Shown: piece after piece, positions 39,674-57,864 of the stretch | Position numbering within the stretch: position 1 is the stretch's first letter | How the letters are laid out: each line of letters starts with the position of its first letter | Virus record (IMG/VR): IMGVR_UViG_3300025767_001103 | Coordinates: 21,751-85,750 of that record | DNA length: 64,000 bases | Direction: 5' to 3' (one strand) | Source of the DNA: a virus | Program-made: the position numbers and the translations under genes | Notes under the pieces: model-generated | Databases searched by the model: none | Told to the model about the DNA's origin: nothing | The model's input: the letters and a program-made list of their open reading frames with translations, nothing else

Positions 39674-41220
39674 TGCACCATGTACTTTTCTTTTCGTTAA
39701 CAGGAAAAAGATGGGAACGAGCACTTTGGCCACACCGTGTAGCTACATTTTTAAGAATGAATGAATGGGATGCCGAGGTAGTAGACTTTACAGCATTTTG
39801 GGAATTAGAAGAACTACAAGAGTTTGTGCGCAGTAGAACTACAAGTAAGACTGTTATGTTTTGTTTCGGCACTGCTTTCTTAAATCCTTGGAGCCCTTAC
39901 TTAAATGATTTTATTGCTTGGTTAAAAAATGAATATCCTGATATTCCAGTAGTAGTTGGTGGCAACAATGCTTTAACCACTCCTGCTGATAATGTAGATT
40001 ATTGGGTAGACAGTTACGGAGAAAATGCCATCCTTGCATTGTGTAAACATTTAATAGGCACATTAGGATCTCCTCTAAGAACCGATCCTACTTTTATGGG
40101 AAGCAAAAATGTTCTCAGAGGATTGCACCATTATCCATCGACACCACTAGACAATTATCTTGTAGACTATGAAACACGAGACTTTATAATGCCGTATGAA
40201 TGCCCTCAAATTGAAACTGCTCGTGGATGTATGTTTGAATGTAGCTACTGTAATTTTCCTCTGTTAGGACAATCTAAAGATGTCAGTGTAAGTAAAGAAG
40301 AATTCAAACGACAGATGCAGACTGGGTACGAGAAGTGGGGCATTAAGAATTGGCGTGTAATGGACGAAACTTTTAATGATCGTCCTTCAAAATTACAAAA
40401 GTATGCTGACGCAGTAGACGAACTAGGATACAATCCTTGGATCTGCGGCTTTGCCCGCGGGGACTTAGTTGTTAAACATAAAGAGCACTGGGACACTTAT
40501 ATTAGATTAGGGTTCCTAGGACATAGTATGGGACTCGAAACTTTTAACAGAGAAGCAGGCAAACTTGTGCGTAAAGGTATGGATCCGACACAAATACAAG
40601 AAGGATTATTAGAGTTTCAAGAATATACAGATATTCATGCTCCTAAGAGATATAGAGCAAACATACAATTAATATGCGGTATACCAGGAGAAACACACGA
40701 GTCTTGGCATAGTTCATTAAATTGGTTAAACACTAAATGGAATAGACAAAGTGCTAGCGCCCACATTTTAGAAATTGGCGATTATGATGAAAGCCTTACA
40801 AACCAAAGCCGATTTACTAAACAACTTAAAGACAACGGCTTGTTGAAAATTGAGGCTAAACAAAATCCAGGGTATGACGTCTATAAAGATGCTAACGGAA
40901 ATGTTGTCTTTAAGTCTACTACTCCACGAGGCGGTGGGGTAGGCAGCACTCGCAATGACATTGTTATATGGAAACATAATACTATGGATTGGTACCAAGC
41001 GCAGAATTTAGTAAAAGAATTTTATTCAGATGATGGATTTATTGGACTTCGAGGGTGCAATCCGTTTTTATCAGATAGATTATTTGTGCTAACAGAAGCA
41101 GAACGATATGAAGATATTTACGATATAAACATGTCACAGACAGATACTAACGATCCTAAGTTTAAAACTTTTGTGAAAAATTACATCGATAAAAAATTAA
41201 ATCATACACTTAGTAATTAA
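39673..41220 (+). CDS. Radical SAM protein with N-terminal B12-binding-like domain
   Basis: A 515-residue protein. Residues 1-135 form a Rossmann-like domain (VLFFSLTG, AEVVDFTAF, IPVVVGGNNAL, YGENAILAL) like cobalamin-binding domains, but the DxHxxG motif for base-off cobalamin is not seen. The radical SAM motif is C186-C190-C193 (CMFECSYC) after ETARGC. LICGIPGETHESW is the typical downstream loop of this family. Such enzymes methylate unactivated carbons or perform ring rearrangements. The last ~130 residues are unique. It ends in a 4-nt stop overlap with the opposing gene. Confidence 0.75.
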   Translation: MHHVLFFSLTGKRWERALWPHRVATFLRMNEWDAEVVDFTAFWELEELQEFVRSRTTSKTVMFCFGTAFLNPWSPYLNDFIAWLKNEYPDIPVVVGGNNALTTPADNVDYWVDSYGENAILALCKHLIGTLGSPLRTDPTFMGSKNVLRGLHHYPSTPLDNYLVDYETRDFIMPYECPQIETARGCMFECSYCNFPLLGQSKDVSVSKEEFKRQMQTGYEKWGIKNWRVMDETFNDRPSKLQKYADAVDELGYNPWICGFARGDLVVKHKEHWDTYIRLGFLGHSMGLETFNREAGKLVRKGMDPTQIQEGLLEFQEYTDIHAPKRYRANIQLICGIPGETHESWHSSLNWLNTKWNRQSASAHILEIGDYDESLTNQSRFTKQLKDNGLLKIEAKQNPGYDVYKDANGNVVFKSTTPRGGGVGSTRNDIVIWKHNTMDWYQAQNLVKEFYSDDGFIGLRGCNPFLSDRLFVLTEAERYEDIYDINMSQTDTNDPKFKTFVKNYIDKKLNHTLSN

Positions 41221-41804
41221 TATCCAATTATGTGAAACATAAACTTTGGAGTCATACCTGCATTAATACCACTGTGCCACTCGTTATGATTATTCCAACG
41301 AAATATTGATCCTTGAATACAGTTATACAAATAATCTTCCCCTAGCATAAAAATATGTCCGGGAGTTTTATCTCCCATCATAATACTGTAGCGTTTGATT
41401 TCACCATGCTTTAAATATTCTTGTTCATTATCATCAACATCCCAATGCCAAGGAGCATAGTATCCAGGATCAACTCTGCTAATCCAAGCGCGGTGAACAC
41501 CTTTTAATCGTAAATAAAATGCAACATCATCGACAAACTCCTGTGAGAACTCTTTTCCAGGATAGTAGTTTGTCCACTTCATGGCAGAAGAATTAAAATT
41601 AGCTTCCTTCCAAATAGAATGAATTTTTCCATAATTGCTATTATCTAAGTTCCAGCGACTAGGGTCAGTAGTAACATCTGAGCCTTGTTTGTCTGTTAAT
41701 GATTCGATTAATTCTTTTAAATTCATGCGTCTATATGCATTTAGAAACGCACAACTTTTTAAAGTTAGTAATCTTCTGTCGTAGGCTGCACCAGGATTGT
41801 GCAT
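41217..41804 (-). CDS. Small cupin/2-oxoglutarate oxygenase-like protein
   Basis: A 195-residue protein. H120-x-D122 (PWHWDVDD) and H177 (EWHSGINAG) form the metal triad; K187 sits where the Arg usually is (TPKFMFHI). The segment KRYSIMMGDKTPGHIFML is shared with 43117 and 43638 (RY.M.L.D..PGH.F), so these three form one family. It starts at an ATG overlapping the upstream stop by 1 nt. The substrate is unknown. Confidence 0.6.
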   Translation of the reverse strand: MHNPGAAYDRRLLTLKSCAFLNAYRRMNLKELIESLTDKQGSDVTTDPSRWNLDNSNYGKIHSIWKEANFNSSAMKWTNYYPGKEFSQEFVDDVAFYLRLKGVHRAWISRVDPGYYAPWHWDVDDNEQEYLKHGEIKRYSIMMGDKTPGHIFMLGEDYLYNCIQGSIFRWNNHNEWHSGINAGMTPKFMFHIIGY

Positions 41805-42403
41805 TATATGATTCCTATCATGTCTAATACTTCTTGCTTATATTCTGTTAGAACACTAATAATTATTATAGTTATTTCTTCTTGACTATTGTTTTGAAAT
41901 TCAGCAGGATATTTTGTTGTATCTAATAAGTATACGTTGCCTTCTTCTAGTACAACGGTTTGAATTTTTTCTTGATGACTAATTAGACAAACATCTTGAT
42001 TAACTATAATAGGAATTATAATGCTAACATGCGCCGGGGTAAAAGCTTGCCACTTTCCTAATTTTTGATTAGGCGGATAATTAAATAAAAATGACCGAAA
42101 CGGCTGTTTTAATAAATCCTTTAATCTCTTAAAGAATCCAAATACCATTGGAGTATCTTTAAAATATTCGGGGCCTTCGTCGTGCGGGTCTAAATCAGGG
42201 TGATACGGAAATGTAGGATCGTTGTATATTGTTTGTAGTCCCCAGCCATTAACACTATGGATTGTATTTTTAGCATCAATAAATGTCGGGTGATTATGAT
42301 GTTTCAAATAATCCCAGTGCAAATAATTAAAGTCTGTTTTTAATATATTAAAATATTCAACAGCGTCATCTATATTATATTTCAAATTTAACTTATGTAT
42401 CAT
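41804..42403 (-). CDS. Degenerate AspH-like cupin protein
   Basis: A 199-residue protein if started at ATG 42403. Two further in-frame ATGs lie upstream at 42409 and 42424, but a TATAAT on the minus strand at 42433-42428 would place the transcript start around 42421, favouring the later starts. The motif order GKWQAFTPAHVSIIIPI, NQDVCLISHQ and LEEGNVYLLDT is that of AspH-type cupins, but the distal His is missing (AEFQNNS where HxxxNxS is usual). It may be inactive or bind a ligand only. Confidence 0.5.
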   Translation of the reverse strand: MIHKLNLKYNIDDAVEYFNILKTDFNYLHWDYLKHHNHPTFIDAKNTIHSVNGWGLQTIYNDPTFPYHPDLDPHDEGPEYFKDTPMVFGFFKRLKDLLKQPFRSFLFNYPPNQKLGKWQAFTPAHVSIIIPIIVNQDVCLISHQEKIQTVVLEEGNVYLLDTTKYPAEFQNNSQEEITIIIISVLTEYKQEVLDMIGII

Positions 42404-42442
42404 AAACATACTTATCGACAGCATAAAATTATAAGTATAGTA

Positions 42443-43120
42443 ATGAACACAACTAATTGGAATTATTATTACAAAAGAACAGCTGATGATGTAACAGCAT
42501 CATCTAATATGTTATACACAGCCTTAATGAATCCTACTAAAGATATTTTATGTAAGCATTATTGTATTAATGAGGATTATCAAGGCGTGCAACCTGGCAT
42601 GACGCAAGAGATAATTGACTTCTTTTTTGAAAGAGAAGTAAGGTTTTTACAAGAGCTACAACATTTAGATTGTACTCCTAAACTCTTAGAAGTAGATCGT
42701 GCTAATAATAAAGTTTTTATAGAATGGAACACAGAAACACTAGCGCAGATAGTATTTGACCCAAACAGATCAATAGATGATGAATTTCCTAATTGGAAAG
42801 ATCGATTGTATAGTGTTGTAAAAGAATTTAAAGATAATGGTTATTATAAACTAGCACTCTATCCGCATTGTTTTTTTATAAACAAATCCGGCGCTTTAAA
42901 AATTATTGACTATTACTCAGTTGTGCCACATGACGATTATTTTATTGAAAGAAAATTAATTGCAGGCATGATTGGAGACCAAGGGTCTTATAGATTTGAT
43001 CAGTCAGAAACTGACGGTGTAATTGATCTTAAAAACTTCTTTAATCTTACAATGAACATACACTTGCCAAAGTGTTGGCCCGACTGTCCATTCCCAGAGT
43101 TTTTTAATAAATTATATTAA
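42443..43120 (+). CDS. Kinase-like protein
   Basis: A 225-residue protein from ATG 42443; the frame is open further upstream (from 42395) but the 47703 homologue begins with the same short N-terminus (MxxxxxxYYWN / YYYK). A conserved Lys in LCKHYC, a Glu in EREVRFLQEL, hinge-like KVFIEWN, and YPHCFFINKSGALKIIDYYS resemble the N-lobe and catalytic loop of aminoglycoside or lipopolysaccharide kinases, but the HxDxxxxN motif is not intact. It may be a pseudokinase. It is paralogous to the gene at 47703. Confidence 0.5.
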   Translation: MNTTNWNYYYKRTADDVTASSNMLYTALMNPTKDILCKHYCINEDYQGVQPGMTQEIIDFFFEREVRFLQELQHLDCTPKLLEVDRANNKVFIEWNTETLAQIVFDPNRSIDDEFPNWKDRLYSVVKEFKDNGYYKLALYPHCFFINKSGALKIIDYYSVVPHDDYFIERKLIAGMIGDQGSYRFDQSETDGVIDLKNFFNLTMNIHLPKCWPDCPFPEFFNKLY

Positions 43121-43641
43121 TCGTGTAATGTAATTTGTAACGTAAGCCTAGGAGTGTATCCAATGTTAGTAGGCCCGTGTATACATTCAGGATCACTCCA
43201 TTCGTATAAATCACCTGCTTTATAGTTAGATAACATTTTATCATCATATGCAAATATGTGTCCAGGCTCCCAGTCTTGTAAGAACATAGTGTATCTTACA
43301 AAATTAGTAAGTTCAGTTAAATGCGGATCGACATGCATTGCTTGAAATTCCCCAGGGTATAGTTTTACAAACCACCAAAACTGATATTTTCTAGTATCTG
43401 GTAAATCAGGATACACAAAGTTGTATCCTTCCATTTCTGGTGATCCTGCGTTAAGCTGATGGAAGAAAAACTTATTATTTGAGTATCCTGGTCTTGCCAT
43501 TTCTCTAAACTTTTCTAACGTTTCATTGCCTGTCCAGCGATCAGGTTGCCATACTGGAGTCTTCTCGCCTTGTTTACTGTTTAACATTTCTATAATGTTA
43601 TTTTCAATAATCCAATCTGCGTAATTACCTATATAATTCAT
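43117..43641 (-). CDS. Small cupin/2-oxoglutarate oxygenase-like protein
   Basis: A 174-residue protein. H103-x-D105 (AMHVDPH), H155 (CIHGPTN) and R165 (TPRLTL) form the complete Fe(II)/2-oxoglutarate set. It shares the N-terminus MxYxGNYADWI and the core RY.M.LQDWEPGH.F with the adjacent gene, a tandem duplication. It is last in a minus-strand operon and meets the kinase-like gene tail to tail with a 4-nt TTAA overlap. Confidence 0.7.
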   Translation of the reverse strand: MNYIGNYADWIIENNIIEMLNSKQGEKTPVWQPDRWTGNETLEKFREMARPGYSNNKFFFHQLNAGSPEMEGYNFVYPDLPDTRKYQFWWFVKLYPGEFQAMHVDPHLTELTNFVRYTMFLQDWEPGHIFAYDDKMLSNYKAGDLYEWSDPECIHGPTNIGYTPRLTLQITLHD

Positions 43642-44135
43642 TGTAGATCATAAGAGCTAAAACATGCAATCATTCTTGTGCTCCATCCTATATTACATGC
43701 ACCGTGTAGTGCCTTACTATCGTCGTAAACAAACAAATCACCTTTTTTGTATCCAGTTGCGAGCTGATCCTCATAGATAAACACATGACCTGGCTCGTAA
43801 TCTTGCAAAGCCATCCAATATCGTTTACTATTTTTTTCTATAAGAGCATGCGGATCTTTATGCATAGGCATTTTGTCGCCCGGATTCATTTTTATAAACC
43901 ACCACAAAAACTCACCATTCAACGGAATAGGCGATTTAACATCAAACGGAAACGTATCGGGCTCGTAAATGTACCAATATGTTTGTGTTAAATCGTATCC
44001 GTGTTCTGCTGCTTTTCTAAATTCTTCACTGTCAGGATTTCTGCCACCTCCAGGTCGACGTGTGCCATCGTTATCTTTTATAAAGTCGATCCACTCTGGT
44101 TGTATCCAGTCTGCGTAATTGCCTAAATATTTCAT
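43638..44135 (-). CDS. Small cupin/2-oxoglutarate oxygenase-like protein, tandem paralogue
   Basis: A 165-residue protein. H92-x-D94 (MPMHKDPH), H144 (ALHGACN) and R154 (STRMIA) are present. The N-terminus KYLGNYADWI and the core RYWMALQDYEPGHVFI mirror the gene at 43117. It overlaps neighbours by 4 nt on each side. The two copies may act on different residues of the same substrate, or one may be a remnant. Confidence 0.7.
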   Translation of the reverse strand: MKYLGNYADWIQPEWIDFIKDNDGTRRPGGGRNPDSEEFRKAAEHGYDLTQTYWYIYEPDTFPFDVKSPIPLNGEFLWWFIKMNPGDKMPMHKDPHALIEKNSKRYWMALQDYEPGHVFIYEDQLATGYKKGDLFVYDDSKALHGACNIGWSTRMIACFSSYDLQ

Positions 44136-44740
44136 ATTAAATCTCGAAATTCCATAAGATCTTCAAAACTAACATTTTTATCCATCATTGTATCTCCACA
44201 CCTAATCACTATTACTATTCTATTCTCGTTCATACTATTTTCAACACCATGATACCAGTCAGCTCTCATTAAAGTAACTTTGTCGACGGTAGTACTTGCA
44301 ATAGGCTGTAATACAATTTCTTCCTTAATAAAATTAATTGTGTATCCATTATAAGGCGGCTTGTCATTCGCACAAAATTTAGACCAAATATATTCTTCTT
44401 TAATATCCTTATGATCATACCAATGCGTTACAGACTCTTCATAATTTTTTATCGGTATAGTAATAACAACTTTTTGATGTAACTCGTTGTTTCCGTCTAA
44501 ATGAATGTTAAAGTTACTCACAGGCGGAACAATTAAAATATTAATATATTGTAAAGGCAGTTTTAATCTCGGAAGTAAAAATCCGCTAAGAATTGGAAAG
44601 TCTTTTATACCTACTGAGTGACAATATTCTGATGTCGCAGACTCGTCAATAACATCATCAGGATATCTGTTAATATATTCTAATAACTCTTTTTGAATTA
44701 ATGGTAGTTCTGGAACATTTAATTTTTGATACATTTTCAT
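44132..44740 (-). CDS. AspH-like Fe(II)/2-oxoglutarate oxygenase
   Basis: A 202-residue protein. H80-x-D82 (NIHLDGNN), H164 (YHGVENS) and R174 (RIVIVIR) follow AspH order, with the typical VVITIPI strand between them. It starts one base after the stop of the gene upstream in the operon. It is soluble, with no signal peptide. Confidence 0.65.
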   Translation of the reverse strand: MKMYQKLNVPELPLIQKELLEYINRYPDDVIDESATSEYCHSVGIKDFPILSGFLLPRLKLPLQYINILIVPPVSNFNIHLDGNNELHQKVVITIPIKNYEESVTHWYDHKDIKEEYIWSKFCANDKPPYNGYTINFIKEEIVLQPIASTTVDKVTLMRADWYHGVENSMNENRIVIVIRCGDTMMDKNVSFEDLMEFRDLI

Positions 44741-44741
44741 A

Positions 44742-45551
44742 TTAATAACTCTCTATATTGTTAATGCCAAGCGTTTTACGAAATTCTTCTGTAAACTTAC
44801 CGTCGATGCGTAATGCATAACTTTGTTCCATAATGCGCTCTCCCCCATGCCAGTCTTGATCATTCCACCAAGCAGCACGAGTATTAAGATATGTTTTGTT
44901 TTTAGTTTCAGGATCCCACAAATAAAATGCTTTCTTAGTATTAGGACGAATATGTATAAATTCGTTTTTGTGCGGAAACGTTTGATTCATTCCGTTTTTA
45001 GCATCAAGGTCCCTGTGTTCAAAAGGAACTCCGTCTGCTTCGCAATGAAAGAATATAACACGCCCGATGTGTTCGAATATGTTATCTTTGATTAACTGTT
45101 CTGTCCACTTTACTATTCCGGGAAAATGTTCTGCTTCTTCTGTTAGTTTACGTTCTGCTGTTCTGTCATTCCATGACCCTTCTTCCCAAAGGAAATAATA
45201 AATGTAAGGATCGTACGCACCTAGTGCCATTTTTAAATAACGTGTAAATTTATTACGCTGTTTATAATCACCAAAGTCTGAAGGCATAAGTTTCATACCT
45301 TCGACTTTAATAGGATTATCATCTGCTAGTGATTGAAATTCTTCTAATGCTTGATAGATAGGTTTCCAATTTAATGTATAACTCATGTCTTCAAAAGTAA
45401 AACCAGGCGCCATCCATGTACCTTCTTTAGCAAACTCTCTTGCCGCCGCAAAGCCATGTATTATTTCTGGTTGTAATTTCTCAAAAGTTTCCATATCTAG
45501 ATACTTTTCCATATCAAAATATGGTTGACTATTAATTCCTTTAATTGCCAT
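44742..45551 (-). CDS. Fe(II)/2-oxoglutarate oxygenase-like protein
   Basis: A 269-residue protein. H179-x-D181 (EHRDLD), H235 (DWHGGE) and R248 (YALRID) form the triad plus Arg. The N-terminal ~160 residues are a helical region without clear relatives. KAFYLWDPETKNK is the beta strand between. It overlaps the radical SAM gene upstream in the operon by 11 nt, strongly suggesting coupled translation with it. Confidence 0.65.
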   Translation of the reverse strand: MAIKGINSQPYFDMEKYLDMETFEKLQPEIIHGFAAAREFAKEGTWMAPGFTFEDMSYTLNWKPIYQALEEFQSLADDNPIKVEGMKLMPSDFGDYKQRNKFTRYLKMALGAYDPYIYYFLWEEGSWNDRTAERKLTEEAEHFPGIVKWTEQLIKDNIFEHIGRVIFFHCEADGVPFEHRDLDAKNGMNQTFPHKNEFIHIRPNTKKAFYLWDPETKNKTYLNTRAAWWNDQDWHGGERIMEQSYALRIDGKFTEEFRKTLGINNIESY

Positions 45552-46596
45552 AATTCTTTATCCATTCTTCAGGTATAGTATCGGGCAGCATTTTTCTTTT
45601 GTTTACTGCATAGTCTCTTAGTATAACTTGATGCACTAACGGACTCGGAGGCTTCCCTGGAAGTATATCAGCAATTGCTTCAGTTTGTACTTCAGATAAG
45701 TCTAATGTTTTAGCATCTGGCCATTGTATAATTTTAACTACAATGTTATTAATAATTAGCGGATAATGAGCTCGGTTGCCGTCGTTATGATCCATTCCGA
45801 GACTCCAGTTATTTTTAGTAGCTATTGCCTTTGTTTCTCTTACTAATTCAGACATATAAATTTGTGGGCCGCCGGGGAATCGTCCGATGTCAGCGCCACA
45901 GCGTACTCTATATTGCTTGCATACATCTAATCCAAATTCTTGTATTTCTTCTAAACAATATTCTAACTGTGTCATGTCTTCTAATGTATAACTGATATTT
46001 TTAATTACTAGTCCTAACTCGGTACAATTTTTAATACCTTCCATCTGCTTTTTGCGCACAGTATGACCTTGATAGTCAGGATGGTTGAGACCAAATGTCC
46101 AGGCAACATTCTTAAAGTCTTTAAACTTTGCAGCATATTTACGATTTGCCATATTAACGCCATTGGTCAAAATCATAATACCACGAGGCTTTCCAGGAAG
46201 TGATTGTATAGCTGTTATTAACTCGGGCAAATCTTTTCTTGTAGTAGGCTCTGCTCCTACTAATGCAACAGGGTATCCGTCATCGGGCCAAGATTTAATT
46301 TTTGCTAATATCGATAAAATTGCTGGATCTATAGACTTGTTATCAGGTTCTTGATAACAATGCGGGCATGCTAGATTGCATTTATTAGTTGTCTCTAGAA
46401 AGTAGCTTCCTAATGCATGTCTTGGATAGTTGTAGTTTAAATAAAACTCTGCATCAGGCTCTACAAGATGTTCAACGTATCCGTGCTCTGGGCATGTCTT
46501 ACTTAACCATATTTGATTATCTTTTTCAAATCTAGTTGCTGGCACATGTTGATAACATTGTTCGCAAATTGATAATGTATCTTTTAGTTTATTCAT
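45541..46596 (-). CDS. Radical SAM protein of the MJ0619/tetraether-synthase-like type (second copy)
   Basis: A 351-residue protein. An N-terminal zinc-like domain (C11, C14, C35: CEQC, VPA, SKTCPEHG) precedes C73-C77-C80 (CNLACPHC). This N-terminal CxxC...KxCPEHG layout is known from the archaeal pterin methylase MJ0619 and tetraether lipid synthase families. The GGEP position reads VGAEPT. It lacks the usual C-terminal extension of those families. It is 4-nt overlapped with its paralogue (46593) and 11 nt with the oxygenase downstream. Substrate unknown. Confidence 0.75.
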   Translation of the reverse strand: MNKLKDTLSICEQCYQHVPATRFEKDNQIWLSKTCPEHGYVEHLVEPDAEFYLNYNYPRHALGSYFLETTNKCNLACPHCYQEPDNKSIDPAILSILAKIKSWPDDGYPVALVGAEPTTRKDLPELITAIQSLPGKPRGIMILTNGVNMANRKYAAKFKDFKNVAWTFGLNHPDYQGHTVRKKQMEGIKNCTELGLVIKNISYTLEDMTQLEYCLEEIQEFGLDVCKQYRVRCGADIGRFPGGPQIYMSELVRETKAIATKNNWSLGMDHNDGNRAHYPLIINNIVVKIIQWPDAKTLDLSEVQTEAIADILPGKPPSPLVHQVILRDYAVNKRKMLPDTIPEEWIKNYGN

Positions 46597-47639
46597 CGAT
46601 ATTTCTCTGGCAATGTATCAAACAACGATTTTCTTTCATTGACTGCTCTATCTCTTAATATAACTTGATGCAATAGTGGACTTTTTGGTTTTCCTGGAAC
46701 TACAGTTGCCCAAGACTCGGAATAGATTTCTTCAAAGTCTATTGTTTTAACATCTACCCATTTAATAAATCTATGTGTAATTCCGTTTATTCTTACCAAA
46801 TAATGTGTACGATTTCCGTTTTTTTCATCTACTTCCCACGACCAACCTTTTTCATTACATACACGTTCTGCTGTTTTGACTAGCTCTGATAAGTAATGTT
46901 CTGGTTCATCTTCGTCTGGAGTGCGTCCAATTTCAACGCCTAGCTGTATTCTTGCATCGCTGCATACTCCCTTATGATGCCATTCTTGAATTTCTTCTAG
47001 AACATCATCTAGCTGATCCATAGTACCTAATGTGTAAGTAAAATTCTTAATAGTAAGCCCTAGCTCAATACAGTTGTCTATGCCTATTTGCTGTTTTTTT
47101 CTAATAACACCACCGTTATAATCTGGATGGTTAAGACCAATGGTCCATGTTAACCCTTCTATGCCTACAAATTTTTCTGCATATGCACGTTTGCCTAAAT
47201 TTATTCCGTTAGTAACAACCATTAGCCATCGTGGAACTTCAGTTAACGATTGTATTTCTTTTACTATGTCTGATAAGTCTTTTCGTGTAGTTGGTTCTGC
47301 TCCTACTAATGCTAATGCCATATCATCAGGTAACTCTTTAGTTTGTTTAATAATGGACGAAACTGTAGGATCTATTGACAAATTGTCTGGCATTTGATAA
47401 CAATGGGGACAATCTAAGTTACATCGATTAGTTATCTCAAACCAGAAAGTATTAGGTAATCTACGTTCATATTTGAAATTAAGATAAAACTCTGCGTCTA
47501 CTTCTACCAAACACTCGTGATAGCCGTGCTCAGGACATGTTTTACTTAACCATATCTGGTTGTCTCTTTCAAATCGTACTGCCGGTACATGTCGATAACA
47601 GTGTTCACACATTGATAATGTATCTTGTAGTTTTTTCAT
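46593..47639 (-). CDS. Radical SAM protein of the MJ0619/tetraether-synthase-like type (first copy)
   Basis: A 348-residue protein, paralogous to 45541 along its length: C11, C14, C35 (CEHC, VPAVRFERD, SKTCPEHG) and C73-C77-C80 (CNLDCPHC), followed by ALVGAEPTTRKDL. The two have diverged in the C-terminal third. It is first in the minus-strand operon, with a TATAAT on the minus strand at 47662-47657. Tandem copies suggest two steps or two positions on one substrate. Confidence 0.75.
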   Translation of the reverse strand: MKKLQDTLSMCEHCYRHVPAVRFERDNQIWLSKTCPEHGYHECLVEVDAEFYLNFKYERRLPNTFWFEITNRCNLDCPHCYQMPDNLSIDPTVSSIIKQTKELPDDMALALVGAEPTTRKDLSDIVKEIQSLTEVPRWLMVVTNGINLGKRAYAEKFVGIEGLTWTIGLNHPDYNGGVIRKKQQIGIDNCIELGLTIKNFTYTLGTMDQLDDVLEEIQEWHHKGVCSDARIQLGVEIGRTPDEDEPEHYLSELVKTAERVCNEKGWSWEVDEKNGNRTHYLVRINGITHRFIKWVDVKTIDFEEIYSESWATVVPGKPKSPLLHQVILRDRAVNERKSLFDTLPEKYR

Positions 47640-47676
47640 TGAGCACTCACATTTTAATTATATACTCATATTTACC

Positions 47677-47684
47677 TATAAATA
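47677..47684 (+). promoter_or_regulatory. T4 late promoter box, exact TATAAATA
   Basis: TATAAATA is the exact T4 late consensus. It lies 19 bases before ATG 47703 in a divergent 63-base gap, with GAGG between. It is the clearest late-type promoter inside the accessory cassette. Confidence 0.6.
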
Positions 47685-47702
47685 ATATTGAGGAACAACG
47701 TT

Positions 47703-48389
47703 ATGGACTATGAATATTATTGGAACAATGTGCCAGGATCTGGGTTGTGTAGAAATAACTTAATCTACACTAGTTTAGTAAATGCACAACAAACTGAATT
47801 TGTACAATGGTATTATAATGATCAAGGATATCACAAAGGACAAAATCAAGTAGTCGATCCTGCACTAATGGAATCAAAATGGCTGCGCGAAGTTAAGTAT
47901 ATTACACAAATGAGCGAACAATATCCTGAATTAGTTCCTATAATAAAAACTATTAACCACACTGAAAGAAAATTACATTTAGAAATAGAAGGTCCTGATT
48001 TTTGGGAACTTGCAAAATGCGACCAAGCAAACTACGATAGTGTATTACCTAACTGGCAAGAACAGATGCTAGACATAATTCAAGCGCACAAGAGTCTAGG
48101 CATTTACAAATACAGTATGCATCCTAGCAGTTATTTTGTAGTAAATGGAAAGCTTAAAAGCATTAACTATTTTTTTGCGTATAATGAAGAAGAAGGTCCT
48201 ATTAGCATAGCAGACCATTCTAGTCATATATACAGCACACGGCAAGAAGAAATGCGTAAACACATTGAATCGTTAGGCATTGACTGGCATGCACCGCAGC
48301 CTTTAAATTTATTAGAACAATTATGTTGGGAGAGTTTTAGAAAGAACTTTCCTAATGATTTTATAGAGAAAGCTAAATGTATAAAATAA
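47703..48389 (+). CDS. Kinase-like protein, paralogue of 42443
   Basis: A 228-residue protein from ATG 47703 (GAGGA 10-14 bases upstream; the in-frame ATG at 47688 overlaps that site). MDYEYYWNNVPGSG aligns with the N-terminus of 42443, and KWLREVKYITQ, LHLEIEGPDFW and YKYSMHPSSYFVVNGKLKSINYF match its N-lobe Glu and catalytic-loop region. The HxD/DFG residues of active kinases are not intact. Likely a pseudokinase or divergent small-molecule kinase. Confidence 0.5.
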   Translation: MDYEYYWNNVPGSGLCRNNLIYTSLVNAQQTEFVQWYYNDQGYHKGQNQVVDPALMESKWLREVKYITQMSEQYPELVPIIKTINHTERKLHLEIEGPDFWELAKCDQANYDSVLPNWQEQMLDIIQAHKSLGIYKYSMHPSSYFVVNGKLKSINYFFAYNEEEGPISIADHSSHIYSTRQEEMRKHIESLGIDWHAPQPLNLLEQLCWESFRKNFPNDFIEKAKCIK

Positions 48390-48931
48390 TTCCTTGGAGT
48401 GAAGACTTAGAATTATCTGAATTTTATGAAGGTGCTGCTGCCCGTGGGTTTGAAAATAATGCATCGCAGCATATGCTTGTAGATTGTTTTCGTAAAGAAG
48501 CTAACTGGCAAACTTGGATATTATACTATAATAATGAAGCTGTAGGCAGTGTAGCAGCACATACATTTGACGATGTAATGGGCCCTAATACATTTAGAGT
48601 TGCTGCTAGAACATGTGTGTTTACAGACAAGTTACCTTTAGTTAGTTTAAGGACACGCAATCAGATTGTTACACATCAACATGCAACTGGACAATTTTTA
48701 ATTCCTGCTTGTTTAGAATGGCTTCCCAAAGGAGCTAGAGCATTTATAACTTCTAACGAAAATGAAGCAGGTACCCAAAAAATAGTACACAGAGTATTTG
48801 CTCCTGCTATGGAAAAGACAGGGCAAATGAAACATATAAAAGATGTGTTTTATAGAGGCACTAATCAAACAGTGTGGGAAATTTTTCCAGACAAGTTTTT
48901 TGAAGAATTAAATAAACATCCTAGATGGTAA
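48377..48931 (+). CDS. GNAT-like acetyltransferase-like protein
   Basis: A 184-residue protein. The order helix-strand (IIPWSEDLELSEFYEGAA), then a beta hairpin (WILYYNNEAVGSVAAHTFDD) and a later VFTDKL strand fits an N-acetyltransferase fold, but the R/Q-x-x-G-x-G/A loop is not clear. It ends in PDKFFEELNKHPRW, which is nearly the same as the end of the next, unrelated protein. It overlaps the kinase-like gene by 13 nt. Confidence 0.45.
   Translation: MYKIIPWSEDLELSEFYEGAAARGFENNASQHMLVDCFRKEANWQTWILYYNNEAVGSVAAHTFDDVMGPNTFRVAARTCVFTDKLPLVSLRTRNQIVTHQHATGQFLIPACLEWLPKGARAFITSNENEAGTQKIVHRVFAPAMEKTGQMKHIKDVFYRGTNQTVWEIFPDKFFEELNKHPRW
48887..48931 (+). repeat. 45-bp direct repeat, copy A (3' end of 48377 gene)
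   Basis: It matches copy B at 49674-49718 at 39 of 45 positions, in the same reading frame and ending at the stop codon. All six differences are transitions. The repeat encodes PDKFFEEL-x-K-x-x-R. Confidence 0.85.
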
Positions 48932-48944
48932 AGTGAGGTAAGTT

Positions 48945-49715
48945 GTGCAAGAAAGTGCAGAAGAATTTTTAAAACATTTAAAGAAAGATTTACATCAGCA
49001 TATAGATGCTTTTAAAGAAAAAACTCGATCTTTTAAAATAGGTCATATAGAGGATATTGATAAGTTTTTTGACGAATACTTAGGTAAACTATTTGACAGT
49101 AAAACTGATCAAAGAATTTTTGATTCTATTAAAACTTTACGGTTTCTTGAACCGCATCATGTAGATGGCTGCAAAGCAATTCTTGACCGTATGAGTTTAC
49201 TAGAACAAATGCCAAAAAATGCTGTAGTAGCAGAGATAGGTGTTGATAGAGGTCGGTTTGCAGAACGTATATACGAGGTTACACAGCCACAAAAGTTACA
49301 TCTCATTGATATTTTTCAATACGATTATCAACTAAAATCAGTAGACAGCATATTTGATCAAAAAGAAAACATAGAAATACATCAAGTAGACTCCGCAGAA
49401 GCAGGAAATTTGTTTAATGACGAGTATTTTGATTGGGTGTATATAGATACTACTCACACATATGAAAGAACCAAAGCAGAACTAAATTCATTTGCAGATA
49501 AAATAAAACCAGGCGGATTCATCTCAGGTCATGACTACTTTCAGGTTGGCGTATCAAATGGGTTTTCATACGGTGTAATGAGTGCAGTACACGAATTTGT
49601 AGTGATCAATAACTGGAAACTATATGCTGTTACGCTGGAACCTTTAGAAAACCAAAGTTTTGTTATACAAAAACCAGATAAGTTTTTTGAAGAATTAAGT
49701 AAATATTCTAGGTAG
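48945..49715 (+). CDS. Class I SAM methyltransferase (Methyltransf_24-like)
   Basis: A 256-residue protein with a GTG start and AGTGAGG upstream. Motif I is VVAEIGVDRGRFAERI, and DWVYIDTTHTYERTKAEL...IKPGGFISGHDY is the signature of class I methyltransferases related to Methyltransf_24, often found in polysaccharide or antibiotic pathways. The first ~70 residues are helical and precede the core. It ends in PDKFFEELSKYSR, the same tail as the preceding gene. Confidence 0.75.
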   Translation: MQESAEEFLKHLKKDLHQHIDAFKEKTRSFKIGHIEDIDKFFDEYLGKLFDSKTDQRIFDSIKTLRFLEPHHVDGCKAILDRMSLLEQMPKNAVVAEIGVDRGRFAERIYEVTQPQKLHLIDIFQYDYQLKSVDSIFDQKENIEIHQVDSAEAGNLFNDEYFDWVYIDTTHTYERTKAELNSFADKIKPGGFISGHDYFQVGVSNGFSYGVMSAVHEFVVINNWKLYAVTLEPLENQSFVIQKPDKFFEELSKYSR

Positions 49716-49718
49716 TAA
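49674..49718 (+). repeat. 45-bp direct repeat, copy B (3' end of 48945 gene)
   Basis: Copy B of the repeat described for 48887-48931. The 787-bp interval between repeat starts contains exactly the methyltransferase gene. Confidence 0.85.
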
Positions 49719-49722
49719 TAAT

Positions 49723-51147
49723 ATGGTGATTAAGTATAACAATATAGAAAACCGTAAGATTGTTTTTTGTATATTAGATAATTTAAACGAATGTGACAAT
49801 TTAATAGCTAAAGATATGTCTATTAATACAATGGATTTTTTAATCCGGACAATGGTAACACAGAAATATGATATATTAATAAGTTCTAACGAATCTGATT
49901 TGTTAACAGAAGCAGTTAAAATAAATAATTACACACATGCTGTTGTTGTAGCAACTGGCACTTATTCCCCTTTTGGTAATAGATTCTTTGATGAAATTGA
50001 AACCTTGTGTAATCAAGATTTTTTTATTGCGGGACATATACTAGATAGACAAGATTCTTATTTAGAACTACACAAACAGTTTTATATAATAAATTTAGAT
50101 GATTATAAAAACTTAAATTGTCCTATTATAGAAGAAGGTAACTGGTTTTTAGAAGATTTGCACGAAGAATTCTGCCCTATTGTATCTAAGTACGGCGACG
50201 ACATTAATAAAATTATTCAGAGTGTAACTATCGGTACTAAAAAGAAAACATATAAATCTAAACTACACGGTTATAATATTCTTAAATTAGCATTAGAGAA
50301 TAATAAAAAACTTATTGATGTTGGTCAAGGACTACGCTCTTCTAAACATTATTTGTATCATGAGTACGATCATGTCTTTATTAATGCATATCCTAAAATT
50401 TTTCATCAACAATTATTTGCTAGAAATGTAGTTGCACCTTGGAATACAGATACCGTTTACGACAAAATCGAATTCAGCGGTCCTGTTGAACAATATGTTA
50501 CAATAGGTACTGGATTAAATTGGATTAGAAACCTAACACTTATTGGTTACACGTCTAATACTGAAGTTGTTTTTACTGATATTAATCATAACTGTTTAAG
50601 ATTTATGAAAGAATTGGTTGAAAACTGGGATGGTATCGACTACGATAAATTTTATCATTCATTTGAATACTTTTATCCTAGTGGAGTACCTGAACACGTT
50701 TTCAAAAATTTATCAGCTAAATGTGAATTTGATGAATTTAAGAATTTTTTTGATAATTGGAACGATACATGGAATACAATTAAAAAATTAAAATTTAGTT
50801 ATCGTCTAATAGACTACACTTCTGAATACGATTTGTCGTGGATTGACCCAACTAAGAGTACATTAATGAACTTTAGTGATTTATTTAATTACGCAGCATT
50901 AACTCCCTTACAAAGTGTTAAATTTAAGATAGGTGCTGAAAATAGACTAATTCACAATCTATCTAAAATTAATCCGGATATTACAGTAATAATTACGTCT
51001 AGGGCTGCCGAAGGATTTAAAGAGTTTAATAGCAATACAATAAGCAAAGTTAAAGATTTAGAATTAACAACTCTTGAAGAATTGAAGAAATTGCCGTGGC
51101 ACGAACACGATTGGAATAAGGTAGGAAGAAGTCACCTTGGACTCTAA
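49723..51147 (+). CDS. Two-domain protein, methyltransferase-like C-terminal half
   Basis: A 474-residue protein. The first ~130 residues (SINTMDFLIRTM, HAVVVATGTYSPFGN, DFFIAGHILDR) look like a Rossmann-type sugar-transferase-like fold. The second half has YVTIGTGLNWIRNL, EVVFTDINHNCLRFM and NFSDLFNYAALTPLQ, resembling a class I methyltransferase core (glycine strand, acidic strand end, N-F/D-x-F loop). No known family is certain. It ends with a CTAA stop overlap against the opposite gene. Confidence 0.45.
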   Translation: MVIKYNNIENRKIVFCILDNLNECDNLIAKDMSINTMDFLIRTMVTQKYDILISSNESDLLTEAVKINNYTHAVVVATGTYSPFGNRFFDEIETLCNQDFFIAGHILDRQDSYLELHKQFYIINLDDYKNLNCPIIEEGNWFLEDLHEEFCPIVSKYGDDINKIIQSVTIGTKKKTYKSKLHGYNILKLALENNKKLIDVGQGLRSSKHYLYHEYDHVFINAYPKIFHQQLFARNVVAPWNTDTVYDKIEFSGPVEQYVTIGTGLNWIRNLTLIGYTSNTEVVFTDINHNCLRFMKELVENWDGIDYDKFYHSFEYFYPSGVPEHVFKNLSAKCEFDEFKNFFDNWNDTWNTIKKLKFSYRLIDYTSEYDLSWIDPTKSTLMNFSDLFNYAALTPLQSVKFKIGAENRLIHNLSKINPDITVIITSRAAEGFKEFNSNTISKVKDLELTTLEELKKLPWHEHDWNKVGRSHLGL

Positions 51148-51788
51148 GGCATAGCATCTATTTTTATAAATTTGCCATCGACATTTTGTTTTTTGGCTGC
51201 GTCTAATATTAATTCTTTCCATCCAGGTAATGAATCGTTTCTTGATGCAATAATAAAATACCTATCTTCGTTGCTATTATTCCATAAACCGTGATAATAA
51301 TGAATATTCATAGCATATGCATGCCCTGGCATCATATCTAAGTTAGGGCTACCATCTTGCCATCGCCATTCAAACCCTTCTGGACTATTTAATACAAATG
51401 AAGTATTATCAATAATAGGACCTTTACTGTCATTATGAAAATTAATATATCCCCCTGCTTCTAGTAACATAAATCGAACTCTACTATATTGTTCGCACGG
51501 AAAAGTGTTTATAAAATAATCCTTAGTAACAGGTGCCGAATTTGAAGCATCAGTCCAACTCATTATTTTGTATGCTTCTTTATGATCAGTAATTCCGTAT
51601 TGATCCCACGATCCGGTTTTATTTTCGTCTAATCCGTGTAGCACTAATCCGTACCAGCCTTCACTGTCACCGTCTCGATGTTTAGTAAATTTATGTCTAA
51701 GATTCTTTGCTTCTTCTAACATTTCGTTGTACGGAAACACCACATCTAAATCTAAGTATTTGGCTTCGGATATAAAATATTCTCTCAT
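51144..51788 (-). CDS. AspH-like Fe(II)/2-oxoglutarate oxygenase
   Basis: A 214-residue protein. H118-x-D120 (NFHNDS), H166 (YYHGLWNNS) and R176 (DRYFIIASR) follow AspH/cupin order, with NTSFVLN between. It overlaps the upstream TauD-like gene by 4 nt. It is last of a three-gene minus-strand operon. Confidence 0.65.
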   Translation of the reverse strand: MREYFISEAKYLDLDVVFPYNEMLEEAKNLRHKFTKHRDGDSEGWYGLVLHGLDENKTGSWDQYGITDHKEAYKIMSWTDASNSAPVTKDYFINTFPCEQYSRVRFMLLEAGGYINFHNDSKGPIIDNTSFVLNSPEGFEWRWQDGSPNLDMMPGHAYAMNIHYYHGLWNNSNEDRYFIIASRNDSLPGWKELILDAAKKQNVDGKFIKIDAMP

Positions 51789-52576
51789 TTATCTCTCTCA
51801 TAATCAAACGTAGCACGATGCACACGGCGAGTATTCATTGATTCGAAATGTAATCTTTTGTGTACACCCAACCATTGGTCACTTAATGAAACATCACCAG
51901 TTTTCCATTCAAGTATGTGGCAATACTTATCTTGTGTAACAAAGTCAAACAATGGTTCAGCAATTTCTAAACTCTGATTTCTAGTCATACCTTCAAATCT
52001 TTCAAATTGATGCAAGCTTAAAAATAATCCTGTTTCACCTATGTGATTAGTGTACACAAGTGGAAATGGTACATCATCGTATATTGTTCTATTTTTAAAA
52101 TTTTCTTGTGTACGTTCTACGCTATGATTAACATTACCAAATGTAATAACTTTTAAGTCTTTGATACGATCTTTTGTATCGCTGTCTAAGTCCTTGTATG
52201 CTTCTATAGTATTATTCCAAACAGTTGTACTACCTTCAACTCCTTGTTCTCCATATAACCAAGCAACTCCTGAGCCCGGCCTTGCATGTGGACTTTCGTT
52301 ATGCCATAGCATTTCTTCTTTGTGTCCTGCTATACTATTTTCTGTTACAAGACCTATGTAACCTTCTTTGTCTAATGCACTACGGTCAAATCCTGGAGTG
52401 TTAGGTTTGAATAACACGTATGGATTAGGAAACATTTTTACAATTTCTGCTTCTCTTTCTACAGATAGGTTCTGATTTCTTATAGTAATAGCAGTATGTT
52501 TTGCACATAACCTAATGAGATTTTTAATTTCTTGTGCAGTAGTAATATTTAAATCGATATCTTCAATTATTAGCAT
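51785..52576 (-). CDS. TauD/TfdA-like dioxygenase
   Basis: A 263-residue protein. It begins with the typical HTAITIRNQNLSVE region. The metal site is H92-x-E94 (LWHNESPH) rather than H-x-D, as in clavaminate synthase-type enzymes. The distal His is H239 (GVHKRLHF) and the Arg is R250 or R251 (NTRRVHR). Length is near the family norm (about 270-300). It overlaps the acyltransferase gene upstream by 14 nt. Substrate unknown. Confidence 0.7.
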   Translation of the reverse strand: MLIIEDIDLNITTAQEIKNLIRLCAKHTAITIRNQNLSVEREAEIVKMFPNPYVLFKPNTPGFDRSALDKEGYIGLVTENSIAGHKEEMLWHNESPHARPGSGVAWLYGEQGVEGSTTVWNNTIEAYKDLDSDTKDRIKDLKVITFGNVNHSVERTQENFKNRTIYDDVPFPLVYTNHIGETGLFLSLHQFERFEGMTRNQSLEIAEPLFDFVTQDKYCHILEWKTGDVSLSDQWLGVHKRLHFESMNTRRVHRATFDYERDK

Positions 52577-53327
52577 TACTATATCCTAATGTTTGTATAT
52601 TGTCCCACTTACTGTCGTCTAAGTTATTAAACTCGTCAGCGAATCTAAAAACATTATCAACAGGAAGTGTTTTTAATATATCTAATCGAGCGTTCCACCA
52701 TTTTGTTTTTAACAGCATTTCTTTTACATTGTCAGGAAATCTATCTCTAATAACTTTATTCACGCCGCCTACAATAGTATAAGGTTCTACGTCTTTGGTA
52801 ATAATAGCATTAGCGGCAACGACAGAACCATTGCCTATTGTTACGCCAGGCATAACAATAATGCCATCACCTAGATATACATCATTGCCTATTACAACAG
52901 GACGAGAATTCATTTCTTTTACATCTGTTTGATCTCTACTAATATTTAACATGACAAGCTCTTCGTCTGTATAGTCACCTTGTTTGGCCATTATAGTGTC
53001 TGGGTTAATGCTAACTCCTGAAAAATTGTGCATGCCAGCAGCAATAGTACAGCGGTATCCTACACCACTATGTCTGCCCATAAACACATTGCATCTCATA
53101 TATCCATTTGCACGTATACTAGAATATGCTCCTAGAAAAATCTTATTAGGCGCATCTTGAAAACTAGGAATATTATTCATTATTCCTTTTTCAAAAAGTA
53201 TGCCTTTGAGATATTCTGTATCTGTGTATCTTATGTTATGCTCATTTAAGTGCATATGGCTGCTTAATAAGGTATCTGCAGAAAGTGTACCGGTTAAAAA
53301 ATATTCTAACTTTGTTTCGATATTCAT
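52563..53327 (-). CDS. Hexapeptide-repeat acyltransferase (CatB/XAT-like)
   Basis: A 254-residue protein. Left-handed beta-helix hexapeptides run from about residue 70 to 195: CNVFMGRHSGVGYRCTI, VVIGNDVYLGDGIIV, VTIGNGSVVAANAI. A catalytic His is seen in AAGMHNFSG. The C-terminal PYTIVGGVNKVIRDRF and KTKWWN are the standard CatB-like ending. Substrates in this family are often sugars or antibiotics. A TATAAATA-like box (53333-53340) lies only 5 bases before the ATG. Confidence 0.75.
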   Translation of the reverse strand: MNIETKLEYFLTGTLSADTLLSSHMHLNEHNIRYTDTEYLKGILFEKGIMNNIPSFQDAPNKIFLGAYSSIRANGYMRCNVFMGRHSGVGYRCTIAAGMHNFSGVSINPDTIMAKQGDYTDEELVMLNISRDQTDVKEMNSRPVVIGNDVYLGDGIIVMPGVTIGNGSVVAANAIITKDVEPYTIVGGVNKVIRDRFPDNVKEMLLKTKWWNARLDILKTLPVDNVFRFADEFNNLDDSKWDNIQTLGYSNANN

Positions 53328-53366
53328 AAAGATATTTATAGAAAATATTACTTGATAAATATTAAT

Positions 53367-53930
53367 ATGGATTTCTCAAACGCAAAAGCAATAGCAGTAA
53401 ACATTGATGTTGACGAAGATAGACTTACACAAGAACTGGAGTCTATACCAGAAACACTTTGGGATAGTGGTGTAGATAATAAAACAAAAACCTATTGGAA
53501 CACTATATGGCTAACAAAAAATGATGTAGACGAGTTTGCTGATTTTAAAACTGCAAAATCTATTAAACATGATGCATGGTATTGGAATGAAGATTTAGAA
53601 ATACCTTATATAAAATCTTTAGTAGAATCTTTGCCTATTAGAACTATAGGAATGATCCGTGCATTTATTTTAACAGGGCCATTGCCTATTCATACTGATA
53701 GTAATGAGTTAACACCTAAAGCACTTGACTATAATTTAGCATTGACTATAGCATCTAAATTAGAAGTACCTATGACAATGACAGATGGTACAAAGGTTAA
53801 AGAAAAAACTATATTTTTTAATGATAGTATTCCTCATGGATTTCCAGACGCAGTAGGCACACAAATGAGCATACGAATTTTTGGCGATTTTGAGTACGAT
53901 AAATTTGAATTGGACACAGTGTATGAATAA
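53367..53930 (+). CDS. Small Fe(II)/2-oxoglutarate oxygenase-like protein
   Basis: A 187-residue protein from ATG 53367; a TTG at 53352 is possible but overlaps an ATAAATA box (53355-53361). H109-x-D111 (PIHTDS), H157 (IPHGFP) and R170 (MSIRIFG) form the triad plus Arg. It precedes a second small oxygenase (8-nt overlap) and then the halogenase, so it may prepare or modify the halogenase substrate. Confidence 0.6.
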   Translation: MDFSNAKAIAVNIDVDEDRLTQELESIPETLWDSGVDNKTKTYWNTIWLTKNDVDEFADFKTAKSIKHDAWYWNEDLEIPYIKSLVESLPIRTIGMIRAFILTGPLPIHTDSNELTPKALDYNLALTIASKLEVPMTMTDGTKVKEKTIFFNDSIPHGFPDAVGTQMSIRIFGDFEYDKFELDTVYE

Positions 53931-54387
53931 CCTAGAATATTTAGATCATCTTCCTACTATGCCTGTCGAGTTAGTAGACGATATTCTAACCACAGTAGAA
54001 ATTGGCGAACGTTACAGTTCAAAAGGCAATACAGAAGCATCTAGCTATAAACATTTTGCTAGTATTGATGCTAGTGATAAACTAAAAGAATTTACAAATA
54101 GTCTGTTTAATTTTAAACACGATGCACACATTTTTGTTTTATCTGATCACATTCCGCCACACATAGATAATCTCGAAGTAAGAGATGTTGCGTTTAACTA
54201 CGTTATTAAATCAGGCAATGGCGTGACTAGATTTCATACAGATAAAACAGATGATAGTATTTACGAAGAACATACTATCGATGTAGGACGTTGGCATCGA
54301 CTAAATGTAGCTAACCTCCATAGTGTTACTATTCCAAATCCGCCTAGAGTAGTATTAACTATGTCAACACTTAAAGGACGCTTGTGA
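53923..54387 (+). CDS. Small Fe(II)/2-oxoglutarate oxygenase-like protein
   Basis: A 154-residue protein from ATG 53923; an in-frame ATG at 53881 would give a larger overlap. H80-x-D82 (PPHIDN), H133 (NLHSVT) and R142 (PPRVVL) follow the usual order in a minimal cupin barrel. It overlaps both neighbours (8 and 4 nt) and is thus coupled to the halogenase. Confidence 0.6.
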   Translation: MNNLEYLDHLPTMPVELVDDILTTVEIGERYSSKGNTEASSYKHFASIDASDKLKEFTNSLFNFKHDAHIFVLSDHIPPHIDNLEVRDVAFNYVIKSGNGVTRFHTDKTDDSIYEEHTIDVGRWHRLNVANLHSVTIPNPPRVVLTMSTLKGRL

Positions 54388-56610: not shown

Positions 56611-57864
56611 TTAGTTTAAGTCTACCCAAGCACTACCTGTGTAACCTTGGAACTTAGTACCTGTTGTATTAAACACCATCATACCTGCTGTCGGGGTTGG
56701 AATAGCTGCATCACGTGCTGCATCGTCTGCATACACTCCAGGAGTAATAGCACCCGGTGCTTTAAACTCACCATTGCCATAAAAGTCGAAACTGGAAGTG
56801 CTAGTGCCGCCGGCGCTTACAAGAAGAGATGTAAGAGAATTAGGAGATGTGTCAGTTATTACAGCATCAGACATCAAGCGAGAAGCCATTATAGTTGTTG
56901 CTTTACCAAAGCCAGCTGCATTGTCCCAAGCAGATATTTTCCAACCGCCTATTATGTCATTAGCTGCTACTGATAGCGGAGTATCAATTGTTCCTTTAAC
57001 AGATAGAAATTCTGTATAAGGAAACCCACCGGGTGAACCGTTAGTAACAGTTGTAATCTGAACTGGTGTTCTGTTCTGGCTATTTAAAATAATAGTTTCA
57101 CCACTATTATTTGAGTTAATTACGCTTGTATTAACAACTTCTGTTGTTACTGTATTACTAATTGCGTCAACTATTAGTGTACTATCATCGCCGAACACAC
57201 TACCTTTTAGATCACCGATTACAGCACCTTCTACTGTGCCAGTTAAATCACCAACAAAACCAAAATTTGCTGTAATCTCGTTACCGACAATATTGTTATT
57301 GTCAGTATTAATCATTATAGTACTGTCATCGCCTACAATATTAATTTTATAATTTTGTTGTTCGTTGAACAAATCTACAGTTGCTACAGCAACAAAATGG
57401 TTACCATTAAACTGTAATATATCACCGGCTTCAGCAGGGTTACTCGTTAAAAACACATCAGTTAAATCATCTAATGAAAGAGCACTAAGTCCTGGAACTG
57501 CTACTGATTCCCATTTGCTAGTAACATTATTAAACGATAGCACCTCGCCGCCAGCTGCTCCTGTTAAATCAGTATCAGTAAGTGCATCTAATGTAGATCC
57601 ACCAGCAATTGATGGTTCCCATTTGTTAGTGCCTGCGTTAAATTTTAGTACATCGTTATTAGTTGCACCTGTTAAATCAGTGTCAGTAAGTGCATCTAAC
57701 GTAGATGAACCGGATCCTGCGCCCCCGGTAACTAATGTTCCACCAGCAGTTGTACCGTCACCTATGTAGAGTAACTTGGTATCAGTGGTGTAGATTAGTT
57801 CACCACTTACGGGTGTTATTAGCAAGCGCTCTGCATCTGTGCCGCGTCTTAGACGTAATGCCAT
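56611..57864 (-). CDS. Tail fibre-like protein with Mtd-type N-terminal domain
   Basis: A 417-residue protein. It starts LRLRRGTDAERLLITP and contains GELIYTTDTKLLYIGDG, the small N-terminal domain of Mtd-like adhesins. Residues 54-125 are two 36-residue repeats (STLDALTDTDLTGA...KWE), with a third, diverged unit after. The rest is beta-rich and ends PTAGMMVFNTTGTKFQGYTG, a common tip. It has a late promoter and an AGGAG site. Its position at the far end of the cassette parallels the fibre genes at the near end. Confidence 0.8.
   Translation of the reverse strand: MALRLRRGTDAERLLITPVSGELIYTTDTKLLYIGDGTTAGGTLVTGGAGSGSSTLDALTDTDLTGATNNDVLKFNAGTNKWEPSIAGGSTLDALTDTDLTGAAGGEVLSFNNVTSKWESVAVPGLSALSLDDLTDVFLTSNPAEAGDILQFNGNHFVAVATVDLFNEQQNYKINIVGDDSTIMINTDNNNIVGNEITANFGFVGDLTGTVEGAVIGDLKGSVFGDDSTLIVDAISNTVTTEVVNTSVINSNNSGETIILNSQNRTPVQITTVTNGSPGGFPYTEFLSVKGTIDTPLSVAANDIIGGWKISAWDNAAGFGKATTIMASRLMSDAVITDTSPNSLTSLLVSAGGTSTSSFDFYGNGEFKAPGAITPGVYADDAARDAAIPTPTAGMMVFNTTGTKFQGYTGSAWVDLN
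57490..57705 (-). repeat. Two 108-bp tandem repeats in the fibre gene
   Basis: The repeats encode 36-residue units beginning STLDALTDTDLTG. The 39-bp stretches at 57560-57598 and 57668-57706 are nearly identical and exactly 108 bp apart. Confidence 0.85.

Follow-up and report, generated by a model that had tools for sequence, protein, structure and literature searches.

The last 45 bp of two unrelated, adjacent genes are shared in the 64,000-nt viral stretch analysed here (the window), and rather than a protein tag this repeat is very probably a scar left when phage recombination inserted a gene. The first gene codes for a GNAT-like protein, to which the encoded C-terminal tail is native, and the second for a methyltransferase, to which it is foreign. 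The features concerned are the following.

48377..48931, + strand: GNAT-like (putative acyltransferase) gene, 184 aa; assigned from the ORF, AlphaFold, Foldseek and 64 IMG/VR relatives
48620..49706, + strand: recently exchanged cassette, common to loci L065–L068 at 99.5% identity
48887..48931, + strand: repeat copy 1; native GNAT-like 3′ end, encoding the C-terminal helix PDKFFEELNKHPRW and stop
48932..48944, + strand: spacer between the GNAT-like and methyltransferase genes, with a GAGG ribosome-site-like motif
48945..49715, + strand: gene for a 256-aa class I methyltransferase (Methyltransf_24 type), starting with GTG; the probable inserted gene
49674..49718, + strand: repeat copy 2; probable former GNAT-like 3′ end, now methyltransferase C-terminus PDKFFEELSKYSR plus TAA
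49674..49681, + strand: probable microhomology CCAGATAA, suggested by sequence comparison of the L069 methyltransferase (CCGGATAA) and GNAT (CCAGACAA)
49723..51147, + strand: 474-aa gene; no family match; directly behind the GNAT-like gene in 14 distinct relatives

A 45-bp repeat at two gene ends

Positions 48887–48931 (CCAGACAAGTTTTTTGAAGAATTAAATAAACATCCTAGATGGTAA) and 49674–49718 (CCAGATAAGTTTTTTGAAGAATTAAGTAAATATTCTAGGTAGTAA) align without gaps at an offset of 787 bp and are identical at 39 of 45 bases; all six mismatches are transitions, and the similarity breaks off sharply at either edge. Both copies are in frame, form the 3′ ends of ORFs and close on the same TAA, with the GNAT-like ORF (48377–48931) ending in PDKFFEELNKHPRW and the methyltransferase ORF (48945–49715) in PDKFFEELSKYSR. 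The methyltransferase stops one codon before the shared TAA, at a TAG where the GNAT copy has TGG (Trp). Alignment and the chance estimate below thus confirm the direct repeat as the preliminary description gave it, and its statement that the 787-bp interval holds the methyltransferase gene exactly is essentially right, the inter-repeat interval being the 13-bp spacer plus that gene. The spacer is identical in two other lineages with the methyltransferase behind the GNAT-like gene.

The AT-richness of the window (35% GC) and the simplicity of the motif, an amphipathic helix, both favour a chance or convergent likeness of two unrelated C-termini, but the probability of this is vanishingly small. 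At window base composition a match of at least 39/45 is expected with p 1.2e-16 per position pair, ~5e-7 over all position pairs on both strands of the window, and 2e-13 over pairs of ORF ends; the common stop and the abrupt edges speak against it as well, and we rejected chance similarity of the tails on these probabilities.

A third copy was found neither in the window nor in the 85.75-kb parent record, and the window has no further gene-end scars of at least 36 bp with similar identity. Its remaining strong repeats are two tandem, minus-strand radical-SAM-like paralogues (45541–47639; 77% and 71% identical stretches) and, inside a fibre-like gene, two tandem 99-bp repeats with a 108-bp period and 76% identity (57505–57711).

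The tail is native to the GNAT-like protein and foreign to the methyltransferase

The product of 48377–48931 has a predicted GNAT fold. Its AlphaFold model (pLDDT 92.4, pTM 0.89) matches GNAT acetyltransferases by Foldseek with a best E of 5e-6 and a TM of ~0.5, and the best 50 of 108 PDB matches (E up to 0.001) are mostly GNAT acetyltransferases. The best Pfam hit, FeeM, is sub-threshold (E 0.043, 14 bits against a cut-off of 27); no curated family profile scored above cut-off in Pfam and none was found in PHROGs or NCBIfam, and we therefore restrict the name to GNAT-like. The model closes with a strand (residues 162–169) and a helix (171–180), and the tail is this helix together with the closing residues. 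Among the 64 relatives found in IMG/VR, most of those having the 3′ end present carry a recognisable tail (e.g. PDKFYEELNKYPRW), and the ends of the most distant ones (L039–L041, L044, L050 and similar) have diverged; no relatives were found in the annotated phages of INPHARED. Because the tail is the C-terminal helix of the model and is kept by most relatives, it is part of the GNAT-like protein.

The methyltransferase matches PF13578 (Methyltransf_24; E 8e-14, 52.8 bits against a gathering cut-off of 26.3) and phrog_2675 (E 5e-14), and its IMG/VR relatives are loci L065–L071. The tail is present in L065–L068, in full as PDKFFEELSKYPKW and shortened in the window by the change of TGG to TAG. 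These four loci represent one virus (0–10 differences in 7 kb), such that the tailed methyltransferase is known from two independent lineages only. The methyltransferases of L070 and L071 (70% identical) end in KPY and a stop, have no tail, and adjoin a tRNA-like sequence with no GNAT-like gene alongside, and most of the distant methyltransferases (27–40%, found with L070) that align to residues 242–244 end 0–2 residues later. The enzyme thus naturally ends just past its last beta strand (..SFVIQKP), and the tail-less relatives identify the tail as an addition after that strand.

The L069 methyltransferase, 89% identical and part of the same gene pair as in the window, ends in KPDNQK and a stop, also without a tail. 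That end is a junction with the 3′ end of a TauD-like gene, the 474-aa gene being missing. The case for a foreign tail leans mainly on L070, L071 and the distant relatives; L069 is weaker, as it may have lost the tail. At L069 positions 6700–6760 the methyltransferase end overlaps the 3′ end of the TauD-like gene, which is convergent; compared with the window, L069 lacks one 2OG oxygenase in addition to the 474-aa gene, so that a second junction occurs at this same point of the methyltransferase. INPHARED holds methyltransferase relatives of at most 47% identity, over part of the length, and none were found in bacterial genomes with the two patterns used. A structure model of the methyltransferase (4 sequences, pLDDT 48) was too poor to use. 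If the added helix affects the enzyme at all, the effect is probably incidental.

A selected tag, in which the tail is a docking, assembly or degradation signal bringing both enzymes together, was the other reading put forward in the preliminary description. The tail is in frame and C-terminal on both proteins and is intact (PDKFFEELSKYPKW) in L065–L068, as a tag would be; however, the AlphaFold model of the GNAT-like protein has it as an integral helix at the C-terminus, L069 has the same gene pair without it, and the window methyltransferase copy is shortened. A strict C-terminal tail pattern across IMG/VR recovered only the GNAT-like family and this one methyltransferase, and a tail profile run over six-frame ORFs of ~70 loci found nothing beyond them. 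The scan for PDKFFEEL-type C-termini on other proteins of related viruses thus came back empty by both approaches, and we rejected a tag borne by several unrelated proteins of the virus group. A tag lacks support beyond the sharing itself, and we consider it most improbable. The preliminary description had also named, as evidence against its proposal, a tail on homologues of both proteins at unlinked loci; GNAT-like homologues do generally carry it, whereas unlinked methyltransferase homologues do not.

Empty sites and an exchanged cassette

Of the 48 distinct GNAT loci, 14 have a homologue of the 474-aa gene right behind the GNAT-like gene, with no intervening methyltransferase, and the GNAT stop and the 474-aa-gene start are near each other, abutting or overlapping. 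Such genomes, without the methyltransferase and with one repeat, were those to which the preliminary description had pointed. The order further along is partly as in the window in L013, L017 and L037 (2OG-oxygenase-like and hexapeptide-like genes, and others). Repeat copy 2 thus occupies the place that the GNAT 3′ end has at the empty sites. Upstream, a kinase-like gene is the constant neighbour (40 of the 48 loci), and downstream the neighbours are of many kinds, which makes the GNAT 3′ end a general mosaic boundary in these viruses. In the window the kinase-like gene (47688–48389; no Pfam or PHROG match, named by eye) overlaps the GNAT-like gene. The surroundings (41217–54387) are a dense cluster of small 2OG-Fe(II)-oxygenase-like, radical-SAM-like and TauD-like genes, with tryptophan-halogenase-like and hexapeptide-transferase-like genes nearby, all assigned by eye.

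The closest empty-site relatives have a GNAT-like protein only ~66% identical to that of the window, and the 474-aa gene has one close relative (L096, 63%). We found no relative with a single, exactly recombinant repeat copy, and no close relative of the exact recipient (a GNAT with a SKYPKW or SKYSR tail and no methyltransferase). In L063 the GNAT-like gene is followed by ATGAGTGTAATACAAAAACCAAAAACTAATTGA and then by a fibre-like gene; positions 209–252 of this locus include a ten-codon ORF (MSVIQKPKTN and a stop) resembling the native methyltransferase 3′ end at 14 of 15 bases, a match equalled by 1 of 5000 shuffles. This ORF is probably what is left of a deleted methyltransferase that had its own end, and if so the methyltransferase has been both gained and lost at this site.

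The window and L065 have in common a near-identical cassette, which extends into the tail and ends there. Over the first 243 bp of the GNAT-like gene the two differ by ~11%, and there are then 5 differences in the 1067 bp up to 49706. The final 12 bp of the tail contain 4 differences and the 33 bp before them none, and past the tail the two are unrelated, with the 474-aa gene in the window and a fibre-like gene in L065. At the cassette's rate, 4 differences in 12 bp have a p of ~5e-7. The right crossover therefore most likely fell inside repeat copy 2, and the left crossover in the GNAT-like gene, between 48619 and 48817; relaxed drift in the last 12 bp could in principle account for the 4 differences in place of a breakpoint. 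The arginine codon at the window tail end is AGG, as in all three loci with the closest 474-aa genes (L013, L017, L037) and in 4 of 45 loci overall (hypergeometric 3e-4, post hoc), which fits an origin of the window tail end from a GNAT–474 parent.

These data also bear on intragenomic copying, in which template switching or gene conversion put a copy of the GNAT tail on the methyltransferase inside a single genome, without a second parent genome. The copies are only 787 bp apart at 39/45 identity, and in L065 copy 2 matches copy 1 at 41/45, equal to the best other GNAT tail; no GNAT tail in the set does better against L065 copy 2, and the exact parent was not found. However, copy 2 leads into the 474-aa gene (the fibre-like gene in L065), as do the GNAT tails at empty sites, which copying alone does not predict, and copy 1 is the same in the window and L065 while the end of copy 2 differs along with the downstream gene. 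We regard such copying as improbable, and favour insertion by recombination between phages.

Origin of the second copy and related junctions

We infer the following order of events. The ancestral arrangement would have been the kinase-like gene, the GNAT-like gene and the next gene (here the 474-aa gene). The methyltransferase gene presumably entered behind the GNAT-like gene, with the left side joined by homology within that gene and the methyltransferase 3′ end fused in frame to the 3′ end of a GNAT-like gene already resident there, the short homology CCAGAYAA being the probable joining point. This would leave the GNAT C-terminal helix on the methyltransferase and a GNAT 3′ end on both flanks, so that copy 2 could then serve as a right-hand homology arm. 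At least two virus lineages, which differ in their downstream genes, have since exchanged the segment from within the GNAT-like gene to inside the tail, presumably through ordinary homologous recombination in the tail. Insertion by recombination, as first proposed, is well supported by the empty sites, the tail-less methyltransferases and the breakpoint in the repeat, but the wording that this copied the tail needs adjusting, as copy 2 more probably represents a 3′ end kept from the GNAT-like gene that formerly preceded the next gene.

The methyltransferase junction clearly belongs to a kind of gene-mosaic junction that has been described in phages before. Genes 67 and 68 of mycobacteriophage Island3 have their last 18 codons in common within a 60-bp common sequence at their 3′ ends, and Brujita, without gene 68, has one copy that is a recombinant, the explanation given being recombination at the common sequence (Pope et al. 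2011, PMC3029335, Fig. 5C). As there, unrelated neighbours have a common 3′ end at the DNA level (here 39/45 bp, to the same TAA), and relatives without the inserted gene have one 3′ end before the same downstream gene (here 14 loci). The phages and genes are different, the origin of the tail can be assigned here (native to the first gene and foreign to the second), and a second lineage has an exchange breakpoint inside the repeat; a counterpart to Brujita, with one copy that is exactly recombinant, was not found among the relatives.

Homology-facilitated illegitimate recombination, a model for displaced T6SS effector genes (PMC5361080) that is also reported in E. coli conjugation (PMC3240628), similarly has one side anchored by homology and the other closed by short or no homology, with part of the displaced locus remaining downstream. 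Those cases concern bacterial chromosomes (transformation, conjugation), whereas ours concerns viruses and is read from sequence only. The boundary-sequence model of phage morons and mosaic gene boundaries (summarised in PMC3029335) likewise involves a single gene in one genome that is missing from relatives, with junctions near the gene ends, but the junction here is an in-frame fusion adding about a dozen residues.

A further, rather doubtful extension is that capture of the GNAT 3′ end made the methyltransferase gene part of a portable cassette flanked by GNAT homology, the tail persisting as a homology arm and not for the protein. If this were true, the cassette could enter any virus of the group having the GNAT-like gene and would need neither endonuclease nor integrase to do so.

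The locus is an unusually clean example of the entry of a single gene into phage genomes, with the donor end, the recipient end, empty sites and a later breakpoint all visible. When neighbouring proteins have a C-terminal motif in common, the motif can be the scar of recombination rather than a functional tag, a caution that matters for the annotation of metagenomic viruses.
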